From positions 1 to 33,725 of IMG/VR virus record IMGVR_UViG_3300030430_001288: a DNA stretch of 33,725 bases. The stretch is one strand, 5' to 3'. The position numbers and the translations under genes are program-made. The first letter of the stretch is position 1. The number at the start of each line of letters is the position of its first letter. This DNA is from a virus. The notes under the pieces were generated by a model that saw only the letters and a program-made list of their open reading frames with translations, ran no database searches and was not told where the DNA came from. Below, piece by piece: positions 24,121 through 25,242 of the stretch.

Positions 24121-24156
24121 GGGGAGAGGGCTTCGGCTCTCTCTCCATTTTTTTTA
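24121..24156 (+). terminator. Strong rho-independent terminator
   Basis: A GC-rich stem, GGAGAGGGC pairing with GCTCTCTCTCC around a TTCG tetraloop (24123-24146), is followed by A and eight T (24148-24155). This ends the first early unit (22926-24110). It is the clearest terminator in the window. Downstream genes therefore need read-through, antitermination or their own promoter. Confidence 0.92.
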
Positions 24157-24208
24157 TCCGTCTCGTGATTCCCCACCCAGGGTGAGATCGCCTCAGAAAG
24201 GAAACGTT

Positions 24209-24340
24209 ATGAGTAAAGGCATAAAAGGTAGAGGCAAGATTCATAGTACATCTAGATCTTGGGAAAAATCACTAAAGAAAGTGGCTAAGGCAAAGGATCG
24301 TCAGAAAGCCAAGAAGAATATTAAAAGAAATTACAAGTAG
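24209..24340 (+). CDS. Small Lys-rich protein (43 aa)
   Basis: This 43-residue ORF starts MSKGIKGRGKIHSTSRSWEK and ends KAKKNIKRNYK. It is extremely basic. An AAAGGAAA site precedes the ATG by six bases, and its stop is followed nine bases later by the next ATG with its own ribosome site. It probably binds nucleic acid, but there is no motif. It contains an AAAGCCAA copy in frame as Lys-Ala-Lys. Confidence 0.65.
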   Translation: MSKGIKGRGKIHSTSRSWEKSLKKVAKAKDRQKAKKNIKRNYK

Positions 24341-24349
24341 GAGGTTAAA

Positions 24350-24634
24350 ATGTTTTTTTATCTTATAGCTGGTATCGCATCAGCTTGTGCAATTTTATTT
24401 CTACTTGCAAAACTAAATATCAAACGAGTTCTTTGTTTTGATGTTTTCGTAGACATAAGTGCCTCAATCGCATTGATTATCATGTTTGCTGGTACATTTG
24501 CTGGAATGATGGCTGGAATCCTAGGTGGTGCAATCATTTCCATTGTACTATTCATTCTTAAACGCACAATAGGGTACGAAAAGCCAAAACGAGAAGGTTT
24601 CAAGGTTAGATGGGTGAATGTTCCCCCCAAATAA
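24350..24634 (+). CDS. Small membrane protein (94 aa)
   Basis: Residues 2-20 (FFYLIAGIASACAILFLLA) form one membrane helix. Two more likely lie in 33-70 (DISASIALIIMFAGTFAGMM, then AGILGGAIISIVLFIL), with a basic soluble tail (KRTIGYEKPKREGFKVRW). A GTAGGAGG ribosome site stands before the ATG. It is an early gene outside the lysis block, so a superinfection or membrane-remodelling role is possible, but this is inference only. No family is recognised. Confidence 0.75.
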   Translation: MFFYLIAGIASACAILFLLAKLNIKRVLCFDVFVDISASIALIIMFAGTFAGMMAGILGGAIISIVLFILKRTIGYEKPKREGFKVRWVNVPPK

Positions 24635-24637
24635 TCT

Positions 24638-24773
24638 TGGATAAATGATGCAGAGTCTGGCTAGCAAGATGGTGTCTGCAACGGGTGGTGATGTCCCTAA
24701 TCCACTATACTAGTCAAGTCCAGTAGCCTTTGGTAATCGATTTAAACGTGTCGTAAAAGCCAAGGGCTATTGG
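24638..24773 (+). ncRNA. Structured RNA candidate upstream of ssb
   Basis: The 5' half can form a three-way junction: TGGAT (24638-24642) with ATCCA (24700-24704); TGCAGA (24649-24654) with TCTGCA (24675-24680); and GGG (24683-24685) with CCC (24695-24697). The 3' half is a strong hairpin, CCAGTAGCCTTTGG (24720-24733) with CCAAGGGCTATTGG (24760-24773): 14 pairs, of which two are G-T wobbles that pair only in plus-strand RNA. The ssb ATG follows 37 bases later. It may be a leader that controls ssb, or an independent small RNA. It matches no riboswitch class that I can recognise. Confidence 0.5.
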
Positions 24774-24810
24774 CATTATCATTAATCATCTAACGTAAAG
24801 GAGAAATCAG

Positions 24811-25242
24811 ATGAATATTGCACAAATCACAGTATCAGGTAATGTTGGTCAAGCACCAGAGATCAAAGAAGTAAATGGCACAAAGGTTGCCAACTTCTCT
24901 ATTGCTGTCAACGAAAGCTACACAACCAAAGCTGGTGAGAAAAGAGAAAATACTCATTGGTTCAGATGTGAAGCATGGGACGGATCAAATGGCAAAGGTC
25001 TTGTGACTAACGTCATTGAGAAGTATGTCGCAGCTGGCACAACTGTCTTTGTCCAGGGTTTTCCTATGGTAGAATCCTATGAGCAAGATGGTCAGAAAAG
25101 AACTGCCTTCAAGATCAAACTTGCTGGTGTGTCATCAACTTTCAGACTTATCAACTCAAAACCAGTTGACTCTACTGCAACCAAGGGTGATACTAAATCC
25201 CCAAAGGTTGACGAAAAAGTTGACGATGAAATTCCGTTCTAG
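24811..25242 (+). CDS. ssb: Single-stranded DNA-binding protein (143 aa)
   Basis: This is a typical bacterial-type SSB with an OB fold over residues 1 to about 113: MNIAQITVSGNVGQAPEIKE, then VANFSIAVNESYT and HWFRCEAWD, with KYVAAGTTVFVQG. After a Thr/Lys-rich linker the protein ends in the acidic tip DDEIPF, the partner-docking peptide of SSBs. The fold should bind single strands at forks and recombination intermediates, protecting them and loading the phage annealing protein. An AAAGGAGA site lies eight bases before the ATG. The structured leader upstream and the hairpin downstream suggest separate control of this gene. Confidence 0.95.
   Translation: MNIAQITVSGNVGQAPEIKEVNGTKVANFSIAVNESYTTKAGEKRENTHWFRCEAWDGSNGKGLVTNVIEKYVAAGTTVFVQGFPMVESYEQDGQKRTAFKIKLAGVSSTFRLINSKPVDSTATKGDTKSPKVDEKVDDEIPF

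Follow-up and report, generated by a model that had tools for sequence, protein, structure and literature searches.

Locus and Gene Neighbourhood

The window analysed here is a stretch of 33,725 nucleotides of viral DNA (positions 1 to 33,725 of the IMG/VR record IMGVR_UViG_3300030430_001288), and all window coordinates given below refer to features of its plus strand. The record belongs to a tailed DNA phage with a terminase, and the nearest annotated terminase is that of Pelagibacter phage EXVC031P Hodr (55% identity). From this kinship and from the contig series we infer that the phage family is marine. DNA comparison revealed no close phage records, and a search for tRNA and tmRNA genes gave no hits.

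The leader under study lies between two genes, which form a unit preceded by a strong intrinsic terminator with an 11-pair stem and a U-tract (24121-24156). The upstream gene (24350-24634) encodes a small membrane protein of a family of unknown function (phrog_19152, E 2.3e-11), and its position is kept in relatives. The downstream gene is ssb (24811-25242; Pfam PF00436, E 3.6e-19; phrog_44), which begins with ATG at 24811 and has the ribosome-binding site GGAG at 24800-24803. In related phage contigs the order is membrane gene, leader, ssb and a ParB-like gene, and a terminator-like hairpin directly 3' of ssb was found in 40 of 81 relatives. A simple scan, limited to sigma70-like promoters, detected no such site from 24160 to 24811, including the interval between the leader hairpin and ssb, where a promoter would have separated the transcription of the two.

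The relatives were collected from IMG/VR by an SSB search, pattern scans and searches with alignments of the membrane protein and of SSB.

Overall Structure of the Leader

The plus strand of 24638-24773 folds with an energy of -43.2 kcal/mol (z -2.95), and none of 200 shuffled sequences was equally stable; for the minus strand the fold z-score was only -1.0. A preliminary description, made from the window sequence, had placed a structured plus-strand RNA element between the membrane-protein gene and ssb, and such an element is indeed kept in relatives. The fold was drawn there as a three-way junction (24638-24704) followed by a 14-pair hairpin (24720-24773). The hairpin is present, with 15 pairs including three G-U or 14 pairs including two G-U, and its end lies 37 nt 5' of the ssb start codon, in agreement with the distance reported earlier. 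The junction could not be retained, as both its outer stem GGAT/ATCC and its second arm GGG/CCC fail in relatives: the former reads GAAT in L194 and is deleted in L221, and the latter is disrupted in L193 and L194. Covariation in the ssb leaders of relatives, proposed earlier as a check, was found in part, namely in the pairing of the two modules described below and not in the outer junction stem. The preliminary description had missed the palindromic loop at 24660-24665, which tells more about the region than any other feature.

The element had not been recognised as a known riboswitch, and a search against all Rfam families, including OLE, ROOL and GOLLD, likewise gave no match: nothing in the window reached the gathering score, and the leader yielded nothing even at E <= 5. 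On the comparative evidence, the leader is a real and conserved structure with an anatomy different from that drawn before, consisting of two separable modules, A and B.

Module A

Module A is a 61-nt element of two hairpins at 24646-24706, which is matched over its full length by the covariance model R1 (cmsearch E 7e-12; a single copy in the record). This model was built from alignment A3, containing 14 diverse copies. In the relatives the module is about 61-85 nt long overall, mostly 60-71 nt.

The first hairpin, P1, has a lower stem P1a formed by UGCAGA (24649-24654) and UCUGCA (24675-24680), an upper stem P1b formed by UCU (24656-24658) and AGA (24667-24669), and an internal loop, the 3' side of which is UGGUG (24670-24674) in the window, GCAAU-like in most relatives and conserved in alignments A3 and A4. 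The second hairpin, P2, is closed by GUGG (24685-24688) and CCAC (24702-24705) around the loop UGAUGUCCCUAAU (24689-24701). In the window group the whole hairpin is conserved as GUGG-UGAUGUCCCUAAU-CCAC, with the loop consensus UGAUGYCCCUAAU; in other groups the loop contains ..ACSUGAU. The P1 internal loop and the P2 loop probably form a binding site for a protein or make a tertiary contact.

The sequences of the stems change in relatives and their pairing persists. P1a covaries, occurring as 12 distinct compatible stems in 40 unique copies (208 Watson-Crick pairs, 9 G-U and no A-C, with the stems placed by hand); P1b occurs as CCC/GGG, ACC/GGU, ACUG/CAGU, ACUU/AAGU and others; and P2 occurs as 16 distinct stems, for example GAGAGG/CCUCUC and UGUAGG/CCUACA. 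Taken together, the stems of module A contain 14 G-U and no A-C cells, a count to be read with the fact that stem placement permitted G-U and was thereby biased toward G-U over A-C at stem ends; the interior stem pairs show the same pattern. In alignment A3, 97.5% of the stem and loop cells are paired, versus 69.8% after shuffling and 23-49% when the alignment is slid, and 10 of 12 pairs vary on both sides. The covariation score of 0.817, versus 0.285 for shuffled alignments, was reached in none of 500 shuffles.

Palindromic Loop of Hairpin 1

In most copies the short P1b stem closes an 8-nt loop of the form R-N6-A. In the window this loop is G-GCUAGC-A, and the core GCUAGC (24660-24665) is a putative kissing site. 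The hexamer is palindromic in 39 of the 40 unique copies, which were curated by hand and partly with guidance from the palindrome, and it is represented by 11 different palindromes, such as GUCGAC, CCAUGG, CGUACG and CUGCAG in addition to that of the window. The sole exception is CCUUGG, which self-pairs poorly and is confined to one lineage (L294, L317 and L318). The flanking bases are A or G on the 5' side and A on the 3' side in the window and most copies; three copies have a 3' C, and nine have an extended loop.

The retrieval of relatives was mostly blind to this property, because the pattern scans had N at every hexamer position and the R1 model contains no trans pairs. The eleventh palindrome, ACAUGU, was found by R1 in L010-L014. 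When the columns of the 12 distinct hexamers were shuffled, at most 6 palindromes were obtained, and none of 200,000 shuffles reached 11 of 12. At other offsets in the hairpin a palindrome appears in only 0-3 of the 40 copies. A loose descriptor of palindromic hairpins was excluded as evidence, since it also matches 25% of shuffled leaders.

The palindromes have been replaced repeatedly. At least 18 changes of the hexamer were counted on the SSB tree, and phages with near-identical SSBs can carry different palindromes, as in the case of L296 (CGUACG) and L300 (CCUAGG). All 14 copies of alignment A3 can form the three trans pairs of the hexamer, which are variable on both sides, with changes on both sides recorded for pairs 2-5 and 3-4. 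These inner pairs are impossible intramolecularly, because the loop would hold 2 or 0 bases, and so what is conserved and selected is the capacity of two copies to pair. Such a pattern strongly suggests that two RNA copies pair loop to loop in a kissing-loop homodimer. On these sequence grounds, we consider it very probable that dimerization actually takes place.

For self-duplexes of the palindromes, the calculated energies lie between -3.4 and -11.5 kcal/mol, and those of cross-duplexes between different loops reach only -4.5 kcal/mol at best; hence, the natural loops are nearly orthogonal to each other. The preliminary description had mentioned action in trans as one option. The loop does look suited to pairing with a second copy of the same RNA, which is trans action in a sense other than the one expected.

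Module B

Module B corresponds to the hairpin retained from the earlier reading. Its arms CCAGUAGCCUUUGGU (24720-24734) and GCCAAGGGCUAUUGG (24759-24773) pair with each other in the predicted fold, and it sits between module A and the ssb ribosome-binding site. It is present in 37 of 90 unique leaders (about 40%), of which 34 also contain module A. The conserved sequence is CCnUUGGU...GCCAAnGGG, and one position shows G-C, C-G, A-U and G-U pairs across relatives. The cells of this hairpin include 108 Watson-Crick, 32 G-U, no A-C and 3 other combinations, a count to which the G-U bias of stem placement noted for module A applies as well. The argument that wobbles working on one strand only point to RNA, made before for the window, thus holds family-wide, and module B is, by its pairing pattern, a plus-strand RNA hairpin. 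The tail of the module in the window, CATTATCATT, has no terminator-like U-tract; tracts of U5-U6 follow it in some relatives (L232, L252).

Distribution and Variants

One strong R1 match was found in each of 19 virus records, and every copy that was placed by locus coordinates sits in the membrane gene/ssb interval. In a divergent group (L009, L015 and L036), R1 matched over its full length with E 0.002 per record, or about 0.03 in the larger search. Unrelated phage DNA, 667 kb in total, gave no match better than E 0.48. Phage EXVC031P Hodr gave a single R1 match of 15.6 bits (E 0.13) in another context, and no phage isolate carrying the element turned up. Matches in L338, L342, L343 and L346 (E 0.04-0.3), located inside the membrane-protein coding region, were taken as chance. 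Bacterial genomes yielded 19 pattern matches, all of them lacking the upstream hairpin.

A curated copy of hairpin 1 is missing from 23 of 90 unique leaders, or about a quarter. In L336, L349 and L350, R1 matches only the 3' part, and in L261 (1587-1671) and L344 (2380-2466) the apical part or loop of module A is replaced by a longer structure. This replacement holds UUCUCC or UUUCCUCC, a potential pairing partner of the ssb ribosome-binding site. In L010-L014, the membrane-protein ORF runs at its 3' end into module A (2904-2964 in L010), so that code and RNA structure share one sequence.

In the arrangement seen most often, 55-66 nt separate the end of the P1 stem from the ssb ATG. Across relatives, the spacing between the P1 stem and the ATG extends from 55 to 443 nt, with module B or small ORFs in between. 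A small ORF stands between module A and ssb in L016 and L251 (it contains MKTQAEIICDEEH... in L251).

Several leaders contain additional structures. In L016, L017, L327 and L328, which form one lineage, an extra hairpin ACGGCCTTAGCATGATTGCAAAATGCTATTAGTCGTG with the palindrome UUGCAA in its loop is possibly a second kissing hairpin. A structured-looking stretch (GTGTC ... GACAC or similar) lies 5' of module A in L203, L216, L232, L233 and L235, and in the last three it includes the 8-nt palindrome CUUGCAAG. In L271, the membrane gene/ssb gap has at its end a sequence resembling the 3' half of a tRNA (GGTTCGAGTCCTGCCATCTGCCCC).

Comparison with Known Systems

The palindrome of the HIV-1 DIS varies among subtypes, and an internal loop lies there beneath a short upper stem. 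This hairpin, SL1/DIS, bears a 6-nt palindrome with purine flanks in its apical loop (PMC7357161, PMC5874298). Module A shares with the retroviral DIS an apical self-complementary hexamer, purine flanks in most copies and conserved self-complementarity. It differs in being part of an mRNA leader of a DNA phage, which has no RNA genome to package, in showing 11 palindromes within one family, and in the linked hairpin P2. The likeness appears to be one of architecture, and common ancestry is not claimed.

For OLE and GOLLD, changes from one palindrome to another have been taken to support the contacts between molecules that cryo-EM shows (PMC12286853). Symmetric kissing loops with covarying palindromes are predicted in module A as well, but those RNAs are far larger (GOLLD is often over 800 nt) than the 61-85 nt of the phage element. 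The 3' UTR of oskar mRNA forms a homodimer via a 6-nt palindromic loop (PMC7357161); unlike module A, it belongs to an animal mRNA and has a localization role. Functional RNA homodimers have seldom been documented in nature (PMC7357161), and among the open-licence papers searched we found no report of a comparable element in a phage ssb leader.

Possible Function and Alternative Explanations

According to the model that we propose, module A would be made in a transcript carrying the membrane-protein gene and ssb, and hairpin 1 would present the self-complementary hexamer in its 8-nt loop. Two copies of the transcript would join via these loops into a kissing-loop homodimer, the formation of which should rise with transcript level. 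The hexamer would be free to drift among palindromes, self-complementarity being obligatory, and for that reason the RNA of each phage would pair with further copies of itself and poorly with the RNAs of related phages. The dimer would then act in cis on the translation or stability of the ssb mRNA, and module B would serve as an accessory hairpin, for example in processing or stability. We give about even chances to this model as a whole, that is, to a homodimerizing leader RNA acting in cis on its own mRNA, and any effect on ssb may be regarded as an equally balanced question.

Several direct routes to ssb were considered. No conserved pairing of module A with the ssb ribosome-binding site was found across leaders, and anti-Shine-Dalgarno pairing is confined to the loops of L261 and L344 and is not general. 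By eye, the P2 loop can be paired in some leaders with AUCAU located 5' of the ssb start, but elsewhere this pairing is lost with no compensating change, and it was discarded. A leader peptide starting from TTG in L009-type leaders was rejected, the ribosome-binding site being missing in L036 and L041.

One form of cis-regulation, put forward already in the preliminary description, is repression of the ssb mRNA by SSB bound to its leader, in which case dimerization would present two sites. The element adjoins ssb, as such an operator should, but in L016 and L251 it is not confined to the immediate 5' region of ssb, as another ORF separates the two, which argues against a strictly ssb-specific operator; we regard autorepression by SSB as improbable. 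The variable spacing is of interest from another side as well. The identity of the element is kept despite a distance of 55 to 443 nt and the insertion of other ORFs or modules 3' of it, as might be expected of a small RNA cut from the leader around module A or B, the dimer of which would act elsewhere than on ssb, for instance on a host or phage protein that it binds. Such a trans-acting RNA seems unlikely: the element occupies a constant inter-gene slot beside ssb in the records examined, and no promoter or terminator of its own was seen in the window.

The main mechanistic rival is, in our opinion, an antiterminator resembling the put RNA of phage HK022, which is built of two stem-loops, about 70 nt in all, and prevents termination at intrinsic terminators (PMC9378689). 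Like put, which antiterminates by way of the zinc-binding domain of the polymerase beta' subunit, nascent module A would bind RNA polymerase and cause read-through of the terminators after ssb, allowing the expression of downstream recombination genes, and the palindrome would be a side feature. The two RNAs are similar in plan and size, which is all that was compared, and the hairpins located after ssb in 40 of 81 relatives would be suitable targets. However, a recognisable terminator is missing there in half of the relatives; put occurs in two copies near early promoters, whereas module A is found once per record, near ssb and within a transcription unit rather than just past two such promoters; and the put RNA has been described without a self-covarying palindromic loop. 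Its rank among the rivals notwithstanding, this reading also has a low probability.

The six-base palindrome is symmetric as DNA too, and could in principle serve recombination, replication or a dimeric DNA-binding protein, with the RNA fold being incidental. Such a DNA-level site is very unlikely, because eleven sequences serve in this position, which excludes a single fixed recognition sequence, and because the flanking stems behave as RNA, covarying and admitting G-U and not A-C, as fits one strand.

Within the preferred reading of module A as a homodimerizing leader RNA, the loop may also be a self-recognition tag, with each lineage having its own palindrome and leader RNAs pairing only within the lineage. 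A phage would in this way sense the number of its own transcripts (or genomes) and ignore co-infecting relatives, similarly to plasmid copy-control loops, and the fast switching of palindromes among near-identical SSBs would have been left behind by selection or exchange that favoured orthogonal tags. We advance this idea tentatively, rating it in all its parts as rather unlikely.

Conclusions

Module A represents a phage RNA family that is small and tractable, and for which sequence comparison by itself indicates that loops of different molecules pair. Its eleven natural and mutually near-orthogonal loops are a test set ready for use. If ssb is under the control of dimerization, the leader would be a concentration-dependent mRNA switch that operates without a protein, and if the loops act as tags, these phages could tell their own RNA from that of their relatives.
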